Below, in pieces: positions 33,438 to 43,337 of a stretch of 64,000 bases of DNA. Origin of the DNA: Gluconobacter albidus (GTDB taxonomy: Bacteria > Pseudomonadota > Alphaproteobacteria > Acetobacterales > Acetobacteraceae); the NCBI RefSeq assembly GCF_002723915.1, contig NZ_BEWL01000001.1:124001-188000 (forward strand), given 5' to 3'. A model generated the notes under the pieces. That model was not told where the DNA came from, did no database searches, and worked only from the letters and a program-made list of their open reading frames with translations. How positions within the stretch are numbered: position 1 is the stretch's first letter; every line of letters starts with the position of its first letter. A program made the position numbers and the translations under genes.

Positions 33438-33520
33438 TAATTAAGACTTTCATTAATCCATAAAATTACAGATTTTTAATGTAAGTCTCTTTAGAATTCG
33501 CGAAAATAATTCAAGACTTT
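33438..33520. repeat. Direct repeat TAATT(C)AAGACTTT upstream of cyoA
   Basis: Two copies, at 33438-33450 (TAATTAAGACTTT) and 33507-33520 (TAATTCAAGACTTT), lie about 70 bases apart in the only A/T-rich block of the region. They may be regulator sites for the cyo promoter. Confidence 0.4.
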
Positions 33521-33537
33521 ATTGGTCCAAAAAGCAG

Positions 33538-33566
33538 AAAGGGGCGGCATCAACTGCCGCCCCTTT
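33538..33566 (-). terminator. Terminator of the Bax-inhibitor gene
   Basis: Perfect 11-base stem AAAGGGGCGGC / GCCGCCCCTTT with a seven-base loop, 32 bases after the minus-strand stop codon. A T-run follows eight bases further on the minus strand. Confidence 0.82.
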
Positions 33567-33597
33567 CCCGATGCCCAGTATCGTCCGGACAGTACTG

Positions 33598-34368
33598 TCA
33601 GTCACTGTTACCTGAACGAACACCCATGAACTGGATAAGAAACTGAAACAGGTTCACGAAATTGAGATACATCGTCAGCGCATCATAAACGCTCAGCTTC
33701 GCTACTTCGTCTGGACCAGCATAGGCCATGTACTGCTGGTACGTGATCTTGATCCGCTGCGTATCATAGGCCGCAAGCAGGGTGAAAAGACCCACACCTA
33801 TTACTGAAACCAGCATGGCCAGCGGCGAACTGTGCAGGAAAATGTTCACCACCGAGGCCAGAACGATACCGATCAGCCCCATGAACAGGAACGAACCGAG
33901 TCGAGCGAGATTGGCGCCGGTCGTGTATCCCCACAGCGACATTCCGGCGAATGTAATGGCCGTCACAAAGAACGTCCGGGCTACGGAAACACCCGTATAG
34001 CTCAGCAGAATGCTGGCCATGCTGGCGCCCATTGCGGCACTGAACAGCAGGAAAATTCCCTGCACGGCAGGACGGGACAGACGGTTGACGCCAAAAGACA
34101 GAACCATCACGAAAACAAGCGGCGCAAAGATGCTGATGCCACCCAGAAGGGTCGGCCGCAGGACAAGCGCGCCGTTCGGCGTTTCTGCCAGATGGAAAAA
34201 CAGGGCGCGAAGGGAAGTCTGTGCGACGCCATAGGCGACCACTCCCGTGATCACCAGACCAAGCGCCATCCAGTTGAAGACCCTGCACATATAAGCGCGA
34301 AGTCCGGCATCAAGGCTGCCGGCTCCGGCCTGCACACCGGCTCTGCTGAAGTTGGAATTAAAAGCCAT
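33598..34368 (-). CDS. Bax inhibitor-1 / YccA family membrane protein
   Basis: Seven-helix membrane protein of the BI-1/TMBIM family; bacterial members act as pH-gated calcium leak channels or modulate FtsH. I chose the ATG at 34366-34368 (AAAGG four bases upstream), which gives 256 residues, close to the family length; the open frame extends 35 codons further. The conserved C-terminal SVYDALTMYLNFVNLFQFLIQ region, with the acidic residues of the pore, is present. It stands alone with its own terminator. Confidence 0.9.
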   Translation of the reverse strand: MAFNSNFSRAGVQAGAGSLDAGLRAYMCRVFNWMALGLVITGVVAYGVAQTSLRALFFHLAETPNGALVLRPTLLGGISIFAPLVFVMVLSFGVNRLSRPAVQGIFLLFSAAMGASMASILLSYTGVSVARTFFVTAITFAGMSLWGYTTGANLARLGSFLFMGLIGIVLASVVNIFLHSSPLAMLVSVIGVGLFTLLAAYDTQRIKITYQQYMAYAGPDEVAKLSVYDALTMYLNFVNLFQFLIQFMGVRSGNSD

Positions 34369-34519
34369 GACACCTTTTCCAATGAGATGCCCTTCTGAAA
34401 AGGGCGCTTGACGAACCAGGGAGGGCCGTCCGTACACTCCACCTGAATGTGGGAGTTTTGCCGGAGGGGTCAAGAATACTCCGCCATCCCTTACTTATTT
34501 TTCATGGGAAACGCACCTC

Positions 34520-35083
34520 TTGAGACTTTTTGTCGCACTCGACCTTCCTGTCGACATCCGGGAAACGCTTGCGCTGATGCGCGGTTCCATGCCTGGCGTG
34601 CAATGGGTTCCTGCACAAAACCATCACATCACCCTCCGCTTCATCGGAGAAATCACGGACAGGCACCGATTGGAGGAGATTGACCTGGCTCTCTCCCGCC
34701 TGGCCTGGAAGCCATTCGATCTGTCGCTCGCACAGGCCGACATCCGCGAGGGGCTCAATGCCGACAGCCTTTTGATCGGGGTCGAACGCACTCCACAACT
34801 TGAGACGCTCCAGTCCCAAGTCGAAAGCGTCCTTCGCCGGGCTGGATGCCCTCCCGCGAAACGGCGCTTTCAGCCAGCTGTCACGCTGGGGCATTTCTCA
34901 TCCAGCCAGCGGGCGGACGCCATCCAGTGGGTGCAGCGACACAATCTCTTCCGCAGCAAACCGATGTCCGTAGAGCACGTTACGCTTTTTGAAAGCCTAC
35001 GTAGCCTTGGAGAGCATGTCTATATTCCGAGAGCTGAATATGCCTGGCAGCCGGAAATGCCCCTGATCCCCGAGGAAGAATGA
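34520..35083 (+). CDS. thpR: RNA 2',3'-cyclic phosphodiesterase (2'-5' RNA ligase family), second HxT altered
   Basis: LigT/2H-superfamily protein of 187 residues that would open 2',3'-cyclic phosphates at RNA ends. The start is TTG, fixed by the conserved MRLFVALDLP. The first catalytic motif is intact (H36-I-T38). At the canonical place of the second, the sequence reads FQPAVTLG, so the expected His is Ala120 (codon GCT). A downstream H153-V-T155 exists but is in the wrong part of the fold. Activity may therefore be lost or changed. The stop overlaps the next gene by four bases. Confidence 0.88.
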   Translation: MRLFVALDLPVDIRETLALMRGSMPGVQWVPAQNHHITLRFIGEITDRHRLEEIDLALSRLAWKPFDLSLAQADIREGLNADSLLIGVERTPQLETLQSQVESVLRRAGCPPAKRRFQPAVTLGHFSSSQRADAIQWVQRHNLFRSKPMSVEHVTLFESLRSLGEHVYIPRAEYAWQPEMPLIPEEE

Positions 35084-35685
35084 CCCGACCCGCTCTCTCC
35101 CCAGAGGAGCGCCTTGACGCGCTTCTTGGGGAAGTCCGTGCCTGCCGTGTCTGTGAGGCTCACCTCCCTCTGGGCGCACGCCCTCTGATCCACGCCTCCG
35201 CAACGTCCAGAATCCTGATCGCAAGTCAGGCACCGGGCACCAAGGCCCATATCGCAGGCAAATCGTTTTTCGACCCCTCCGGAAATCGCCTCAGAAGCTG
35301 GCTCGATATCCCGGAAGACATTTTTTACGACACCCGGCACGTCGCGATTTTGCCAATGGGCCTCTGCTATCCCGGGCGCCTGCCTCAGGGCGGCGACAAA
35401 CCGCCGCGCCCCGAATGTGCTCCCCTGTGGCGCCAGCGTATTCTGTCGCTCCTGCCTGATGTTCGCCTGACCCTTCTTGTGGGCAGCTATTCCCAGAACC
35501 ATGTTCTGGGACGTGGTTCGGTCACGGAACGTGTCAGGAATTTCAGGAATTATCTGCCCGAATATTTCCCCCTGCCCCATCCGTCATGGCGAACCGGCGT
35601 GTGGGAAAAGAAAGCGCCGTGGTTTCAGCAGGAGGTCATCCCCGCCCTGCGAGAACGAGTCCATGCCGTCCTTGCGGAGCGCTGA
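35080..35685 (+). CDS. Uracil-DNA glycosylase superfamily protein with Fe-S cysteine set
   Basis: A 201-residue UDG-fold protein. C22-x2-C25 and C96-x16-C113 fit the four cysteines of an iron-sulphur cluster, as in family 4 and 5 UDGs. Motif 1 reads SQAPG instead of GEAPG (glutamate to glutamine) and motif 2 region PLPHPSWR keeps the His. FFDPSGNRLRSWL matches the G-x-PF-x-x-x-G-xx-L block. It may excise uracil or another base; the substrate is unclear because of the altered motif 1. Coupled to thpR by ATGA. Confidence 0.85.
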   Translation: MTRPALSPEERLDALLGEVRACRVCEAHLPLGARPLIHASATSRILIASQAPGTKAHIAGKSFFDPSGNRLRSWLDIPEDIFYDTRHVAILPMGLCYPGRLPQGGDKPPRPECAPLWRQRILSLLPDVRLTLLVGSYSQNHVLGRGSVTERVRNFRNYLPEYFPLPHPSWRTGVWEKKAPWFQQEVIPALRERVHAVLAER

Positions 35686-35688
35686 CCC

Positions 35689-36390
35689 TCAGGCCGCTTT
35701 CGCCTGCTTCAGCGCCTCGATCAGAAAACCTTCGACGCCGGATGCGAGGATCTGCACCCCGATTGCGAGCAGGATCAGGGCAGCGAGACGGCTGACAATC
35801 CGCGCGCCCGTCACACCCAGCATCGCCACAACACGTTCGGCGTAGGCATAAACGATGGCCACCACGACAGCCATGGTCGTGGCCGCAGCGGACACACCGA
35901 GATAATAGTCCGCCGTCGGCATATGGGGCGGCGTTGACGAACTCAGGGCAATGGCGACGGAAATGCTGCCCGGCCCCACCGTAAACGGCATTGCCAGCGG
36001 AAAAAACGCCCGCTCCCGCAGATCCGGCGTCGTTACGGTCCGGCCGCCCTGAAGCGCCTGTTTCTCCTTGCGGGCTTCGGACGTTTCGGGCTGCAACAGC
36101 ATCACCCAGGCACGGGACGCCACCACAAGGCCGCCGGTGATTCGCAGGGCATTGATCGAAATGCCGAAAAACCCGAGAATCCAGCTTCCGAACCAGATGG
36201 ACACCAGCATGATGCCCAGAGAATTCAGCGCCACCTGACGCGCGAGTTCAACGACTTCGCGGCGCTCACGCCCTTCCGTGGCCTGCGCGAAAATCAGCGA
36301 GGCTCCAAGCGGATTGATGATCGAGAACAGCGCCGGAAAAGCAATCAGCCAGCTGCTGAGCGTATTCCCCAGCCCGGGCGTCATGCTCAT
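35689..36390 (-). CDS. MarC family membrane protein
   Basis: Six-helix membrane protein of 233 residues (MarC/YchE/YhgN family, function not established). The opening SIINPLGA and the central FPLAMPFTVGPGSI motif are the family signatures. Its ATG overlaps the mprF stop (ATGA), making it the last gene of lysK-mprF-marC. It converges on the UDG gene with three bases between stop codons. Confidence 0.9.
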   Translation of the reverse strand: MSMTPGLGNTLSSWLIAFPALFSIINPLGASLIFAQATEGRERREVVELARQVALNSLGIMLVSIWFGSWILGFFGISINALRITGGLVVASRAWVMLLQPETSEARKEKQALQGGRTVTTPDLRERAFFPLAMPFTVGPGSISVAIALSSSTPPHMPTADYYLGVSAAATTMAVVVAIVYAYAERVVAMLGVTGARIVSRLAALILLAIGVQILASGVEGFLIEALKQAKAA

Positions 36391-38546
36391 GAGCCTGTCA
36401 GCCCCGATACAGCCTGAGGCTGGCGCTTGCGTGCCAGCCGTTCCTCACCCTTCAAAAAAGCCCGCAGCATCCGATAATCCTCGGAAAAACAGCATACCGT
36501 CCCGGCTGTCCTGTCTGGACAGACCGTCAGTCCCAGATCGTTATAAACGGCCATCAAAGACTGGCCAACCTGTATGAAAGCGAGCTTGCAGCCTTCCTGC
36601 AACGCCAGATCCCGCAGTCGCCAGATGGCAGCCACACAGTTCCGTTCGGAGCCCGCGGGATCGCCCAGCCCGATAATGAACTGCCCCGTCCGCAGGAACG
36701 GGATGGCCGCACGCCCAGCTTCATCCAACAGCAACCCTGTCGGACGGCGTGCGCCCAGTTGAGGGAGCGCATGGGCCAGGCTGTGGTAGCGGCAGGCGTT
36801 TTCGGCCGTCCAGGCTTCGAAGCGGATCCGCGTCCGGCGCATTCCGCGCCACAGAACGTAGAATCCGCACAAGGCCGAAAAACCCAGAAACCAGCGCCCG
36901 ACAGCCGTATGGGCATCATAGATCATGGAGCGCCACCAGATCGGCCCCAGATGCCGCTGCACCGCAACCCAGCCCACCCCCATGAGCCCCAGTCCCCACA
37001 GCGAGAGTGGCGCTAGCGTAGCAGGCGTCAGCGGGGCAGTCAGAAGATGTGCCCGGCGATAATAGCAGTTCCGGAACGGCAACAGCAGCAGCATCACGAG
37101 CGCTATGACAACCGGTCCTTCCCACGGTGCATGACGCAGGATCAGCAGCAGAACCGCCGCCCCCAGCATCCCGAGGGAAAATTTCCAGGCCAATGCCACA
37201 CGCTGTGACAGCCCCCAGGAGAGCGCCGCAAGCCCGACGCCAACCACCGTCAGCAGAAGATCTGCAATCTGTGACACCGCTGCCCAGAAGGACGTCTGCA
37301 GAGGCGGCAGGTCGGCCACCAGCGCATACAGCAGCAGCAGAAGTCCGACGACAGCCTGCACGCTCGTCGCCACCGCCACCGAAAAATCTGCTTCCGATTC
37401 CCGAATGACCTGACTGGGCCTGACCCTGCGCGGCGTCTGTCCGGCCGAGACCAGAGCCTGCTCTCCCCGCAGGAACAGTTCATGCCCCGCGAACATCAAC
37501 CCCGCAATCAGAAGGGGGATAATGTAATAGAAAAGTCGGAACACGAGGATCGCGCCCATGATCTGCGACGTCGGCAGATAAGCCTGCAACGCCAGCAACA
37601 TGGCCCCATCAAAAACGCCCAGCCCCCCCGGAACGCTCGCCATCAGGCCGGCCGTGTAAGACGCAAGATAGATCGCCAGAAAGGTCCCGAACCCAAAATG
37701 AGCTTCCGGCGGCAGAGGCGGCAGCACGCAATACGCAATGAGCGCCGTTGCCGCCATGTCCGCTGCACTGACCGCGATCTGAGCAATTGCAATCCCTGGT
37801 CCCGGAAGCTCGATCTCGTATTTCCAGACACGGACATGCCGCCGAACGCGTGACACCAGCACATAGGCCAGAAGTACGCCCCACAGCCCGAGCCCAACAA
37901 ATCTCAGCAGAAACGTCGGCAGATGCATCAGAACTGGCACCGCGTGCGGCTCGATAATCAGGATTCCCCCAATTAACGCCATCGTGCCGAGCAGATAGGT
38001 CGCGGAGCAGAAAGCAATAATCTGCGCGATTGCACCCGGCGCCACACCCCAGCTCCGGTAAAGCCGGAAGCGCACCGCCGCACCTGAAATCGCCGCACAA
38101 CCCAGGTTGTGGGACAGCACATAGGAGCAAAACGCCGCAAAGGCGGAGCGCTGATACGACACGTCTGCCCGAACATGCAGACACGCCAGCCGGTCATAGA
38201 AGGACAGGATGAAATACGACAAAACCGTCGCCGCCCCACCGGCCAGCAGAGCGGAATCCGGAATGGCGCTCAGGCTCGTGGTGATGTCATGCAGCGAAAG
38301 ATGTCGCAGTTCCCGCCAGATGACGACCACAGCCGCCACCAGCAGAACCAGCCCCACAAGAGCCGGCGCGCGCGACAGGAGAACCTGCCAGCGTCGTTTC
38401 GACAGGCTGGCGTCCTCACACCCGCAGTCTACAGGATCCGTCTCTACCGCTGCGCATACCGCGTCTTTCACAGACGGGGGCTGGGCGTCCGGCGACCGGA
38501 GTTCCAGCCTCTTGTCCCCCGGTCTTTTATCTTTGGGCGCGCCCAC
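36387..38546 (-). CDS. mprF: MprF-type flippase with a truncated C-terminal aminoacyl-PG synthase domain
   Basis: MprF proteins add lysine (or alanine) from aminoacyl-tRNA to phosphatidylglycerol and flip the product. Here the N-terminal membrane region of about 13-14 helices is complete, including SVPGGLGVFDGA of the flippase domain. The C-terminal DUF2156 part starts normally (FIIGLGDPAG near 635-645, then FIQVGQSLMAVYNDLGL) but ends about 40 residues later. Length is 719 against roughly 850-880 in proteobacterial homologues. The second GNAT-like fold is missing. The GTG start lies three bases after lysK with AGGG upstream, and the stop overlaps marC, so the shortened end is a real gene boundary rather than a local sequencing slip. 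Confidence 0.85.
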   Translation of the reverse strand: MGAPKDKRPGDKRLELRSPDAQPPSVKDAVCAAVETDPVDCGCEDASLSKRRWQVLLSRAPALVGLVLLVAAVVVIWRELRHLSLHDITTSLSAIPDSALLAGGAATVLSYFILSFYDRLACLHVRADVSYQRSAFAAFCSYVLSHNLGCAAISGAAVRFRLYRSWGVAPGAIAQIIAFCSATYLLGTMALIGGILIIEPHAVPVLMHLPTFLLRFVGLGLWGVLLAYVLVSRVRRHVRVWKYEIELPGPGIAIAQIAVSAADMAATALIAYCVLPPLPPEAHFGFGTFLAIYLASYTAGLMASVPGGLGVFDGAMLLALQAYLPTSQIMGAILVFRLFYYIIPLLIAGLMFAGHELFLRGEQALVSAGQTPRRVRPSQVIRESEADFSVAVATSVQAVVGLLLLLYALVADLPPLQTSFWAAVSQIADLLLTVVGVGLAALSWGLSQRVALAWKFSLGMLGAAVLLLILRHAPWEGPVVIALVMLLLLPFRNCYYRRAHLLTAPLTPATLAPLSLWGLGLMGVGWVAVQRHLGPIWWRSMIYDAHTAVGRWFLGFSALCGFYVLWRGMRRTRIRFEAWTAENACRYHSLAHALPQLGARRPTGLLLDEAGRAAIPFLRTGQFIIGLGDPAGSERNCVAAIWRLRDLALQEGCKLAFIQVGQSLMAVYNDLGLTVCPDRTAGTVCCFSEDYRMLRAFLKGEERLARKRQPQAVSGLTGS

Positions 38547-38549
38547 GGC

Positions 38550-40193
38550 TCAGCCCTGTACAGGCTCTTCAACAGGCCGCGCGAGAGCTTCCCTAATCAG
38601 GCCAACCGTTTCCGGCAGCCCGAACAGGGAGGCGAAAATCCCGAAACGCGGCCCTTCGGCCTGCCCCAGCAGAACCTCATACAGGCACCCGAACCACGAC
38701 CGCAGCTCGGATTTCTCGAAATAGCGCTTTCCGACTTCAAACACGACATCCTGCACGTCGCCCGGCGGCGTTTCCGGCGCGAGCTTTGCCAGTTCGTCCG
38801 CAAGATCCACGAGCCCCTTGCGCTCGGTCTCGGTCGGCGCGCGATAGGTCTTGTTCGGGTAAACCTGCTCCTGGAAATACGTCAGCGCACAGCGCACCAG
38901 CCGATCCACATACGGATGCGTCTCGGGCGACAGCGTCGGATCATAGCGGCGCAGGAACTTCCACAGCGTCTCGGGCTTGTCGGCATTGGCGACGTTCGCA
39001 AGGTTCAGCAGCGCCGTGTACGATACTGGGCTGGTGTCTTCCGGACGGATCGTCCCACCGTGAATGAACCAGACAGGATTGGCCAGCAGATCCGGCCCTT
39101 CCTGCGTCTCGGCTTTCTGCACGAGCGTCAGGTAATCATCCGTCGCGCGCGGAATGACATCGAAGAACAGGCGCTTGGCCCGCGTCGGCTGTTGGAACAT
39201 GTACTGCCCCAGACTTTCCGGCGTGCCGTAACGCAGCCATTCCTCAACCGACAGGCCATTGCCCTTGGACTTGCTGATCTTCTGTCCCTGCGCATCGAGG
39301 AACAGCTCATAGGTCAGACCCGCAGGCGGTTCCTTGCCCAAAATACGGCAGATCTTCGAGGACAGCTTCACACTGTCGATCAGATCCTTGCCGGACATTT
39401 CATAATCCACGCCCAGAGCATACCAGCGCATGGCCCAGTCGGCCTTCCACTGCATCTTGGCTTGACCGCCCAGAACGGACGTTTCGAACGTCTTGCCAGC
39501 CTCGTCCTTCCAGACGACGGTCCCGGCATCCGGATCAACCTTGATGATCGGCACCTGCATGACCTGACCGGTTTCGGGATGGATCGGCAGAACCGGCGAA
39601 TAGGTCGCGCGGCGCTCCGGACCAAGCGTCGGAATAATGGTCGCCACGACTTCATCATGGACTTCAAGCATACGGCGCAGCGCCGCATCGAACGTACCGT
39701 TCGTGTAGTACTGCGTGGCGGACGCAAACTCGTATTCAAAACCGAAACTGTCGAGGAACTGGCGAAGACGCGCGTTATTATGCGCGGCAAAGCTGTCATA
39801 TTCGCCAAACGGATCGGGAACCCGTGTCAGCGGCAGGCCAATATGCTTCGTCAGAAGCTCCTGCTGCGGCACATTGGTCGGCACCTTGCGCAGAGCATCC
39901 ATGTCGTCAGAAAATGCCAGCAGACGCGTCGGACGGCCTGTCAGTGCCTCATAGGCCTGACGGACCCAGGTCGTACGGGCCACTTCGCCAAACGTGCCGA
40001 TATGCGGCAGGCCCGAGGGGCCATAGCCCGTTTCCAGAAGGGCCGGAGCCTGTTCTGAAGCCTCTCCGGCAGCGTCAGACGCGCGCGCATCCAGGCGCGC
40101 AGTGATTTTTCGCGCCTCTTCGAACGGCCATGCTTTCGGAAGCGGCGCGTCAGGAGAGAGGGACGGGGCGATAGGTGTCTTGGATTTCTGCAT
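38550..40193 (-). CDS. lysK: Lysyl-tRNA synthetase, class I
   Basis: Charges tRNA-Lys. This is the class I LysRS used by archaea and many alphaproteobacteria, recognisable by GPSGLPHIGTF (HIGH motif at 64-67 in variant form) and KISKSKGNG (KMSKS). The anticodon-binding helical cage fills the C-terminus. The 547 residues are a normal length. It heads a tightly packed operon with mprF and marC, a context that supports a link to lysyl-phospholipid synthesis, in which Lys-tRNA is the donor. Confidence 0.95.
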   Translation of the reverse strand: MQKSKTPIAPSLSPDAPLPKAWPFEEARKITARLDARASDAAGEASEQAPALLETGYGPSGLPHIGTFGEVARTTWVRQAYEALTGRPTRLLAFSDDMDALRKVPTNVPQQELLTKHIGLPLTRVPDPFGEYDSFAAHNNARLRQFLDSFGFEYEFASATQYYTNGTFDAALRRMLEVHDEVVATIIPTLGPERRATYSPVLPIHPETGQVMQVPIIKVDPDAGTVVWKDEAGKTFETSVLGGQAKMQWKADWAMRWYALGVDYEMSGKDLIDSVKLSSKICRILGKEPPAGLTYELFLDAQGQKISKSKGNGLSVEEWLRYGTPESLGQYMFQQPTRAKRLFFDVIPRATDDYLTLVQKAETQEGPDLLANPVWFIHGGTIRPEDTSPVSYTALLNLANVANADKPETLWKFLRRYDPTLSPETHPYVDRLVRCALTYFQEQVYPNKTYRAPTETERKGLVDLADELAKLAPETPPGDVQDVVFEVGKRYFEKSELRSWFGCLYEVLLGQAEGPRFGIFASLFGLPETVGLIREALARPVEEPVQG

Positions 40194-40403
40194 GATTACA
40201 GGAAAAGGTAGGGAGACACCTCTTCCCGGTCAAGCAATACGACACATTGCGGTTTCACTCAGAGGCGTCCATTGTATTACGAAATATTTCAATAACTTTT
40301 CCACGCTTTCTAACTCCTTGCAGATAGCCAGCTTTCACGTTCCGTTCGCAAAAAACACAAAACATCCTCGCCGGATTTTTCCCTACCCGCTACACTGGCC
40401 GCA

Positions 40404-43337
40404 ATGCCCAGCGCCCCCACCTTCCTGTCGCCTTTCGACGCTCCGGCCCTCGTCGCCCGTCGTGGCCTGTCGTCCCTTCTGACGCCGGATGGCGAGTTGC
40501 TGGACCTGACGGCAGAAGAAACGCGCGAGCGCCTCACACAGCTTCCCCCGCCTCTTCTTGTTCACGGCCCCGCTGCACTTCGCGCGCTGGACCTCTCCCC
40601 GCTGTCCCAGCCCGTACCGTGGTTCGACCTGCTGGACCTGTTCCTGTTCGTCCGCCCTGCCACGACCGTCGCCCCTACCCCGCGCGGACTGGCCCTTGCC
40701 CTCGGAATTGAACCGCCCGGAACCATCGGCGCGGACCTCCTCCCCATCCTGTGCGAAACCCTGCTCGACGAACTGCGCCACAAGTCCGAAACGCCCGAAG
40801 GCACCCGCCTGCGCGCCCTGATGGTCCCTCTGACCCGCGCCGGATGGGCCTGGAGCGGCGAGGTCACGGACATTCTCGGAACGCCGCGGGACACCACGGG
40901 CGCCCACCCTTACGAAGCCATCCGCATCTGGAAGCGCCTGCCGCGCTGGGAAGAAACCGCCCCGCGTCCCGCGCCCGGAAGCCAGCCCGTCTCACCCAAC
41001 GCCGCCCGCCAGCGCCTGCGTGAGATCCTTGGAGAAAACGCCGAAATCCGCCCCGGTCAGGCCGATTTCGCCTCTGTCGCCACGGCCGCTTTCGAGCCGC
41101 GCGAAAGCATTGGCTCCCCCAATGTCGTCCTCGCCGAAGCCGGAACCGGCACGGGCAAGACACTCGGCTATATCGCGCCCGCCAGCCTCTGGGCCGAGCA
41201 GAATGACGGCGCCGTCTGGATCAGCACCTATACCCGCCATCTCCAGCGCCAGATCGAACAGGAACTCCGCCGTCTCTATCCGGGTGAAAAGATTCTTCGG
41301 GAGAAAGTCGTCGTCCGCAAAGGCCGGGAAAACTATCTGTGCCTGCTGAACATGGAAGACCTGCTCAACGTCGCCAGTTCCCGTGGCCCTGACGGTTACT
41401 CAACGCTCCTCCCGATGGCCCTGCTCGCCCGCTGGGCGGAGGCCAGCCGCGACGGGGATCTCATGGGCGGCGATCTTCCCGGGTGGTTCGGCGAACTCTT
41501 CGGGCATGGGACGCTTTTTGGCATCGCCGACCGACGCGGCGAATGCATCCACGCCGCCTGCCCGCATTATCAGACCTGCTTCGTCGAACACGGAATCCGC
41601 CGCGCCCGTCAGGCCGATCTGGTCGTCGCCAACCACGCCCTCGTCCTTTCACAGGCCGCTTGGGCCGCACTCGCCCCGCCCGGCCTGCCTGACGAGGACA
41701 CGACGCCCACGCGCTACGTCTTCGATGAAGGTCACCATATCCCCGACGCAGCAGACAGCGCCTTCGCCACGGCCCTCTCGGGCCTCGAAGCCGCTGAACT
41801 CCGGCGCTGGCTGCTCGGTGCCGAGGGCAGCCGCTCCCGCGCCCGTGGCCTGCAACGCCGGCTGGACGATCTGCTGGAACGCCTGCCCATGATCGACACG
41901 CCGCTGCACGCGGCACTTCAGGCCGCAAGGAGCCTGCCCGCCCCCGGCTGGAGCACGCGCCTGCGCCCCGAGAGCCCCGCTGACGAAGACCCCGGTCTGA
42001 TCCCCTCACCGAGCACGCCAGCTCTATTGATCCCCGAGGAACCCGCACCGGAAAACCCGTCCGAAGTCTTCCTCCGCGCCTTGGATCACCAGCTCCGCGC
42101 GAGACAGACCAAGGACAGCCGCGACGGCTATATTTCGGCGGAATGCGACCTGCACCCTGTTAATGATGACGTCGCCAACGCCTCCAAAACCCTCAGCCGC
42201 GCCCTGTCGCGCCTGCGCGATCCGCTGAAACTTCTAACTGACCGCCTCGCCGCACAGGTCGAGGACGACGCGGAAATGGACGCACCGACGCGCCAGCGCA
42301 TCGAGGCCATGATCCGCACCCTGCACCGCCGCGCCATCAGCCGCCTGTCCGGCTGGATCGGCATGCTGGACGCGCTTCAGACGCCTCCCGAACCGGACGT
42401 CACCCCCACTTTCGTGGACTTCATCCGCACCGAACGCCTACCCCGCACCCGCGCCACGCAAGGGGATCATGACATCGGCCTGTACCGGCACTGGCTGGAC
42501 CCGACCATTCCCTTCGTCTCGACCATCCAGACACCCGCGCACGGCCTGCTCATGACGTCCGCTACTCTGCGCGACCAGACCGGCCATGGAGACGCCCAGA
42601 ACGAAGCAAGCTGGCACGCAGCAGAATTACGTCTGGGCGCCACCCATTTCCTCAAGCCGCCCATCCGCGCTTCGGTCATGAGTCCGTTCGACTATGCCAC
42701 GCAGACGCGCGCCTATGTCATCTCGGATGTCTCGGGCGAAATCCCGTCACTGGCCCATGCCTTCCGGGCCCTGTTCGAAACCGCAGGCGGCGGCGCGCTG
42801 GGCCTCTTCACAGCCATCCGCCGCCTGCGCGAAGTCCATCGCCGCATCCACGAACCGCTGGAAACACAGGGCTTCCCGCTCTACGCCCAGCATGTCGATG
42901 CCATGGACAACGCCACCCTCGTGGACGTCTTCCGCACCGAAACCCATAGCTGCCTGCTGGGAACGGACGCGATGCGCGACGGCGTGGACGTTCCCGGTGA
43001 GGCCCTGCGCATGGTGGTGTTCGAAAAGACCCCTTGGCCCCGCCCCGACATCCTGCACCGCGAACGCCGCCGTCTGCTCTCCGAAGGCCACCCCGGCGAT
43101 TACGACGACCGCATCACCCGCATGCGCCTGCGCCAAGCCTTCGGGCGCTTGATCCGTCAGGGCAGCGATCGCGGCGTGTTCGTCATGCTGGACCGCCGCA
43201 TGCCCTCACGTCTGCTCTCCGCCTTCCCCGACGGCGTGGAGGTCCGGCGCATGCCACTGGCCGAAGCACTGGAAGACATCGCCCGTTTCCTGCGCCCCGA
43301 GGAACAGGAAAACGAACCGCCCCTCCTTCAGGGCTGA
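40404..43337 (+). CDS. DinG/XPD-like ATP-dependent DNA helicase
   Basis: A 977-residue superfamily 2 helicase. Walker A is AEAGTGTGKT near residues 244-253, and the Walker B DEGH box follows at about 437. Between them lie four cysteines (one in YLC, then GEC, AAC and QTC) consistent with the Fe-S cluster of XPD/DinG. The last 200 residues carry motifs V and VI (GTDAMRDGVDVPG, LRQAFGRLIRQGSD). The first 200 residues are an unassigned extension typical of alphaproteobacterial homologues. Its end overlaps the convergent telA gene by ten bases. Confidence 0.9.
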   Translation: MPSAPTFLSPFDAPALVARRGLSSLLTPDGELLDLTAEETRERLTQLPPPLLVHGPAALRALDLSPLSQPVPWFDLLDLFLFVRPATTVAPTPRGLALALGIEPPGTIGADLLPILCETLLDELRHKSETPEGTRLRALMVPLTRAGWAWSGEVTDILGTPRDTTGAHPYEAIRIWKRLPRWEETAPRPAPGSQPVSPNAARQRLREILGENAEIRPGQADFASVATAAFEPRESIGSPNVVLAEAGTGTGKTLGYIAPASLWAEQNDGAVWISTYTRHLQRQIEQELRRLYPGEKILREKVVVRKGRENYLCLLNMEDLLNVASSRGPDGYSTLLPMALLARWAEASRDGDLMGGDLPGWFGELFGHGTLFGIADRRGECIHAACPHYQTCFVEHGIRRARQADLVVANHALVLSQAAWAALAPPGLPDEDTTPTRYVFDEGHHIPDAADSAFATALSGLEAAELRRWLLGAEGSRSRARGLQRRLDDLLERLPMIDTPLHAALQAARSLPAPGWSTRLRPESPADEDPGLIPSPSTPALLIPEEPAPENPSEVFLRALDHQLRARQTKDSRDGYISAECDLHPVNDDVANASKTLSRALSRLRDPLKLLTDRLAAQVEDDAEMDAPTRQRIEAMIRTLHRRAISRLSGWIGMLDALQTPPEPDVTPTFVDFIRTERLPRTRATQGDHDIGLYRHWLDPTIPFVSTIQTPAHGLLMTSATLRDQTGHGDAQNEASWHAAELRLGATHFLKPPIRASVMSPFDYATQTRAYVISDVSGEIPSLAHAFRALFETAGGGALGLFTAIRRLREVHRRIHEPLETQGFPLYAQHVDAMDNATLVDVFRTETHSCLLGTDAMRDGVDVPGEALRMVVFEKTPWPRPDILHRERRRLLSEGHPGDYDDRITRMRLRQAFGRLIRQGSDRGVFVMLDRRMPSRLLSAFPDGVEVRRMPLAEALEDIARFLRPEEQENEPPLLQG

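Follow-up and report, generated by a model that had tools for sequence, protein, structure and literature searches.

The lysK–mprF locus and the domains of its MprF

MprF is a peptide-resistance protein in which lipid synthesis and lipid flipping are usually fused. Here we describe a short form of this protein in Gluconobacter albidus, encoded directly downstream of lysK on contig NZ_BEWL01000001.1, within a stretch of 64,000 nucleotides that we analyzed as a whole (hereafter the window, with positions counted from its first letter). lysK, mprF, and marC lie on the minus strand, with a gap of 3 bases between the first two and an overlap of 4 bases between the last two; this order, the coordinates, and both junctions agree between the list of open reading frames (ORFs) and an earlier note made from the sequence alone.

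36387..38546, minus strand: short MprF (mono-GNAT MprF), 719 residues, GTG start (ORF; PF03706 and partial PF09924; NF033480; AlphaFold2)
37467..38396, minus strand: flippase subdomain 1 (about residues 51–360) with the lipid head-group pocket (PF03706 at 66–347; pocket residues)
36840..37415, minus strand: flippase subdomain 2 (about residues 378–569), including R497 (model helices; R497 in 41/41 short forms)
36423..36830, minus strand: single GNAT fold (residues 573–708), matching GNAT fold 1 of the MprF synthase domain (AlphaFold2 fragment; 4v36 match)
36423..36503, minus strand: last strand and helix (residues 682–708), proposed to correspond to the strand and helix that end full-length MprF (fold comparison)
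38550..40193, minus strand: lysK, class I lysyl-tRNA synthetase (LysRS) (NF001968, 796 bits)
35689..36390, minus strand: marC-family gene (PF01914)
40404..43337, plus strand: divergent gene 5' of lysK, putatively helicase-like as judged by eye (ORF)

The product carries a flippase membrane domain and the start of a synthase domain. PF03706 (LPG_synthase_TM in Pfam) matched residues 66–347 at 49.8 bits against a cut-off of 33.4, and PF09924 (LPG_synthase_C) was matched only over profile positions 28–96 of 298, at 27.6 bits barely above its cut-off of 27.5. The NCBIfam model of bifunctional MprF, NF033480 (bifunc_MprF), was covered from position 6 to 622 of 841 with 301 bits, below its cut-off of 600. 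Together with the single-fold structural model described below, these matches bear out the earlier note's reading that the flippase domain and the beginning of DUF2156 are kept and the second GNAT fold is absent: of the features of bifunctional MprF, the flippase membrane domain and the lipid pocket are found, and the two-GNAT synthase domain is not. Nor is the protein a member of the flippase-only family TIGR00374, since it scored 23.3 bits under a curated cut-off of 43.2 and a GNAT fold is also present. Judged from these profile matches, the domain content does not support the label of lysylphosphatidylglycerol (Lys-PG) synthetase, under which automatic annotation may well be placing such genes.

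The earlier note had also raised the option that another protein supplies the missing half. We regard a GNAT fold 2 provided in trans as highly improbable: no positive evidence for it was found, the short MprF is the only PF09924 place in the Gluconobacter genome, and a GNAT-fold-2 profile search returned no match in that genome (G000). Across 26 genomes of the genus, the same profile gave only two short, chance-like matches, each with a stop inside it (E values of 0.05 and 0.72). In the control, the profile found GNAT fold 2 in 4/4 genomes, but three of them had themselves contributed rows to it and the fourth is closely related to a contributor; this shows that the search works, not its reach, and a diverged partner could escape it.

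A single GNAT fold and its counterpart in full-length MprF

An AlphaFold2 model computed from 41 aligned short forms reached a mean predicted local distance difference test score of 82 for the whole protein and 90 for residues 571–719. Its soluble part forms one compact GNAT fold with the order helix, three strands, helix, strand, helix, two strands, and a long final helix. Compared with solved structures, the whole model matched six full-length MprF entries at Z 28–32. The top solved matches of the GNAT fragment were 11 MprF/DUF2156 entries with Z of 9.6–15.1, the best being 4v36 (Z 15.1, root-mean-square deviation (rmsd) 2.7, 130 residues aligned). In 11/11 of these entries, the last aligned chain residue was 848–876, near the C-terminus, and the whole model agrees. 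Only 117–130 residues of the fragment were aligned across a chain span of at least about 310 residues, so that most of GNAT fold 2 is skipped, with the caveat that the fold comparison reports the first and last aligned residues and not residue pairs.

The model thus suggests a likely arrangement in which the last two strands of fold 1 are separated by GNAT fold 2 in the full-length protein; excision of fold 2 in the short form would leave fold 1 complete. A similar wrap-round alignment was obtained with FemA (1lrz), where fragment residues 4–130 aligned to chain residues 2–412 (Z 8.1, rmsd 4.5); FemA, which lacks a membrane part, carries both GNAT folds, and ordinary GNAT enzymes among the same matches scored at least as high.

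Several results weaken the case for such an excision. In 9j8q, the last helix of the fragment fell outside the aligned range, and the Foldseek alignments covered 101–112 of 149 columns in most MprF chains, without a visible wrap-round. By sequence, the case is weak: in hhalign the tail profiles matched the C-terminal end of full-length MprF better (P 0.009), with a probability of only 4.4%, than they matched the start of GNAT fold 2 (P 0.26, probability 0.2%). Single tails beat 95% of their own shuffles in 11/41 cases for the C-terminal end versus 8/41 for the start of GNAT fold 2, whereas the average share of shuffles that scored better leaned the opposite way (0.32 versus 0.28). The C-terminal truncation described in the earlier note therefore holds for the loss of fold 2 but probably not for the cut-off end, where the fold comparison points to an internal excision that the sequence comparison scarcely supports.

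Spread of the short form and its link to lysK

Next, we evaluated how widely the short form occurs. It is present in 26/26 Gluconobacter genomes, including that of the window, with open frames of 697–753 residues and no stop within the match, and named Gluconobacter loci showed a best-segment identity of 75–96% to the window locus. This agreement rules out a frame error or assembly artefact, a check that the earlier note had called for, and establishes the short form as genuine. Among 200 sampled Acetobacteraceae genomes, 185 had an mprF protein match and 171 a PF09924 match. Of the PF09924 places listed, 12 covered most of the profile and all others ended at or before position 111 of 298; each of the 12 family genomes with a full-length MprF also had a second, short-type PF09924 place. 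What had looked like an odd truncated gene is hence indeed short, yet it is no oddity, being the usual and conserved form throughout the family. In one genome (G031, locus L207), a full-length-type MprF is split across two frames and the short form is also present.

Beyond the family, we surveyed samples of the class (289 genomes) and the phylum (299 genomes). In the class sample, NF033480 matches ending near position 622 were confined to the family, with the exception of G255, and the phylum sample held no short form outside the family among the matches listed. G255 (L071/L208) belongs to another alphaproteobacterial family; its NF033480 match runs from 3 to 628 of 841, its ORF has 829 residues, its C-terminus seemingly retains a shortened GNAT2-like remnant, and no lysK lies within the 10-kb locus. 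This MprF is possibly an independent case of synthase loss. In a tree of the shared region (66 rows), all 41 short forms fell on one side of a branch with support of 100/100, and the 10 full-length MprFs of the family fell into two groups together with their counterparts from other alphaproteobacteria. The tree is rooted only at its midpoint and the older state cannot be read from it; because full-length MprF is widespread, we infer that GNAT fold 2 was lost.

These patterns bear on whether the short MprF is a decaying remnant of bifunctional MprF. In favor of decay, the synthase lacks one half, some genera have lost more of the gene or all of it, and 9 of the 150 family rows listed contain one or two stops within the matched stretch, although one of these nine (G109) had an intact ORF of 696 residues (L027). 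Against this stand the match in 185/200 family genomes, the single tree group, residues that are invariant over 41 sequences, and the 12 genomes in which the short form persists alongside a full-length MprF, which together make decay the least credible of the explanations considered here.

We then examined the link to lysK. LysK is a class I LysRS (NF001968, 796 bits against a cut-off of 648) and the single match of that model in the genome. The class II LysRS model gave nothing over its cut-off in the Gluconobacter genome, with sub-threshold matches only to ORFs of 357 and 625 residues, which we take to be elongation factor P lysyltransferase and aspartyl-tRNA synthetase, respectively; the former, assigned by its size, lies at G000:C2:450207-451142 (L209). 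In a first sample of loci across genera, lysK lay directly 5' of the short mprF in 20/20, and among the family genomes for which both places were listed it was directly upstream in 134/135 (121/122 adjacent on the same strand, plus 13/13 judged by how far lysK lies from the PF09924 place). Only G104 departs from this, with 1.76 kb between the two genes. The pair was also found in 69/69 named genomes, whose species overlap with the other counts, and in 33/33 mprF-bearing loci of the two chosen samples. The LysRS link named by the earlier note is therefore real.

Some loci depart from the pair. Among the 15 family genomes in which mprF was not matched, nine retain lysK and six lack a match to either gene, while G029 has an mprF match and no lysK match. 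In genera g54, g96, and g24, whose loci (L101–L106) were read directly, lysK is present with no mprF nearby; in the g96 loci L104 and L105, the divergent neighbor of lysK is also absent from the stretch. Finally, in L107 and L109 (g89) and L108 (g68), the homologs next to lysK retain nothing of MprF beyond flippase subdomain 1; two are ORFs of 315 and 319 residues, and the third has a longer possible start.

A tight pairing could also arise from slow decay of gene order around an essential gene, without any tie between MprF and LysRS. The divergent neighbor of lysK is likewise kept near it in 19/20 loci of the first sample, so that slow decay explains part of the link, and lysK persists in 9/15 family genomes lacking an mprF match. 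However, in several deeper loci (L099, L100, L110, L115, L116, and L118) mprF stays although the divergent gene has moved or lies outside the fetched stretch, the pair is present in every mprF-bearing locus of both chosen samples, and lysK lay beside full-length MprF in 0/19 class loci (L051–L069, 1.5-kb flanks) and 0/12 family loci, where class II LysRS was not searched for. Overall, we hold this account to be a reasonable possibility that falls somewhat short of even chances; it is compatible with the flippase function proposed below, and the likelihoods of the two overlap.

Predicted function and other neighbors

From the domain content, conservation, grouping, linkage, and kept residues computed here, and the search for GNAT fold 2 in the genus, we infer a flippase activity, a docking role, a cargo, and an order of events. 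Specifically, the short MprF is probably a synthase-less lipid flippase or scramblase that keeps GNAT fold 1 for docking. The two-subdomain membrane part would move lipids across the inner membrane, and GNAT fold 1 would stay attached to dock on, or gate, the flippase from its cytoplasmic side. GNAT fold 2 is absent together with the cleft for aminoacyl-tRNA, and the fold probably went missing in one piece at an early stage of the Acetobacteraceae. A potential Lys-tRNA site of MprF, as described in the accessible text of PMC8131360, is the cleft between the two GNAT folds; with fold 2 absent, the known reaction should therefore be impossible, and the short MprF would not lysinylate phosphatidylglycerol by this route. 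An endogenous aminophospholipid or bulk phospholipid is the probable cargo, and the neighboring LysK is the housekeeping LysRS. Pseudomonas aeruginosa MprF moves unmodified phosphatidylglycerol, phosphatidylcholine, and phosphatidylethanolamine in vitro, according to the accessible text of PMC11980842, so a flippase without a synthase of its own can have a cargo. The reduction to the flippase core in g68 and g89 also points to a flippase role. Of the three options offered by the earlier note, "flippase only" is the best, with the activity itself predicted.

Residues of the pocket and of the docking interface were compared by mapping the Rhizobium tropici MprF positions onto the short forms through an R. 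tropici fragment and counting the equivalents by hand. In R. tropici MprF, the Lys-PG head group is bound by D234, Y303, R304, and Y307, with E280 as the salt-bridge acid. The 41 short forms retain the pocket charges: D234 is D in 34 and E in 7, Y303 is F in 41, R304 is R in 41, Y307 is Y in 41, and E280 is D in 37 and E in 4. The corresponding counts for 15 full-length alphaproteobacterial MprFs are D 15, Y 12 and F 3, R 15, Y 15, and E 15. The residues through which GNAT fold 1 contacts the flippase have been described for R. tropici MprF (section 7 of PMC8131360). At this interface, Glu611 is E in 15/15 full-length MprFs and D in 41/41 short forms, Arg456 (R497 as its counted equivalent here) is R in 15/15 and 41/41, and Asp635 is D in 36/41 short forms; we propose D646 and R497 as a docking pair. 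Mean pairwise identity among the 41 short forms was 0.53 for subdomain 1, 0.41 for GNAT fold 1, and 0.34 for subdomain 2. Since GNAT fold 1 is conserved above subdomain 2, it is under selection, plausibly for docking.

Other observations count against this function. Interface positions Asp604 and Arg136 are not conserved in the short forms, and GNAT fold 1, being under selection, may have more than a docking role. The cargo may differ, as suggested by Phe in place of Tyr303 (41/41) and Asp in place of Glu280 (37/41), although Phe at Tyr303 also occurs in 3/15 full-length MprFs. In addition, mprF is dispensable in the nine family genomes that keep lysK without it, and a plain flippase does not explain so tight a link to lysK (134/135). 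That link may survive from an ancestral Lys-PG operon or may reflect a physical or regulatory coupling, and the data do not favor either.

The same linkage could be read as the mark of a tRNA-dependent transferase, in which a dimer pairs the single GNAT folds or LysK helps, and Lys-tRNA made by the neighboring gene product is used on some acceptor. MprF is homodimeric elsewhere and GNAT fold 1 is conserved, both in favor of a transferase. Yet three loci in two genera dropped GNAT fold 1 and kept the lysK link, and the invariant residue D646 of this fold corresponds to a position at the flippase interface in R. tropici MprF; we thus judge a transferase distinctly unlikely. Scarcely better are the prospects of a more speculative arrangement, an Acetobacteraceae-specific membrane LysRS complex of short MprF and LysK, whose paired GNAT folds would lysinylate an acceptor, or which would tether LysRS and so couple tRNA charging to lipid translocation.

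The short form can be compared with several known systems. With bifunctional MprF (NF033480; R. tropici 6lvf/7duw, R. etli 7f47, P. aeruginosa 9goe/9j8s) it shares subdomains 1 and 2, the pocket, and GNAT fold 1 along with the acid and the arginine of the interface, but it lacks GNAT fold 2 and the aminoacyl-tRNA cleft, and its gene adjoins lysK. LysX, the actinomycete MprF-LysRS fusion, likewise associates an MprF-like protein with a LysRS, and the synthetase part of the fusion is a class II paralog according to the accessible text of PMC2922099. Here, in contrast, the two proteins are separate ORFs, LysK is of class I and the sole LysRS found, and there is no complete transferase; neither a fusion nor a dedicated paralogous class II LysRS, which would mark a LysX-type system, was found. 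The flippase-only proteins of PF03706/TIGR00374 have the lipid-translocating membrane core and no synthase in common with the short MprF, which differs in retaining subdomain 2 and GNAT fold 1; the three g68/g89 loci have reached the flippase-only state. The converse, an MprF without the flippase part, is known from Clostridium perfringens (accessible text of PMC11980842).

Flippase-only proteins, flippase-less MprF, and LysRS fusions are thus known kinds, and searches of open-licence papers brought up no mono-GNAT MprF that is usual across a family and linked to a housekeeping LysRS. There, no paper on a short MprF or a lysK–mprF pair in Acetobacteraceae was found among the matches listed (titles and opening abstracts), and the terms Acetobacter, Gluconobacter, truncated, and GNAT are all absent from the accessible main text of PMC11630815. 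A family-wide form without a complete synthase would offer a clean system for studying the flippase alone, the role of GNAT fold 1, and the lipids moved in bacteria of vinegar and cellulose. The neighboring LysRS also raises the question of whether a housekeeping synthetase can couple to membrane lipid transport.

No regulatory RNA was found at Rfam gathering scores in window positions 33500–41000. Consensus scans of positions 35500–40500 gave one promoter-like site (1.3 in shuffles) and eight terminator-like sites (4.4 in shuffles, standard deviation 2.2), and were not used further. Of the lysK-mprF-marC packing reported by the earlier note, the arrangement in the window stands, but a family-wide linkage of marC does not. 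marC follows mprF on the same strand, 3' of it, in 62/69 named loci, mostly of acetous genera, and lies beside it in 6/20 loci of the first sample and 0/19 of the second, which rules it out as a family-wide third partner. Around it, at positions 33598–36390 of the window, marC, a UDG-superfamily gene, a LigT-like gene, and an ORF of 291 residues (33598–34473) tend to stay by mprF in acetous genera, a set that thins in deeper genera.
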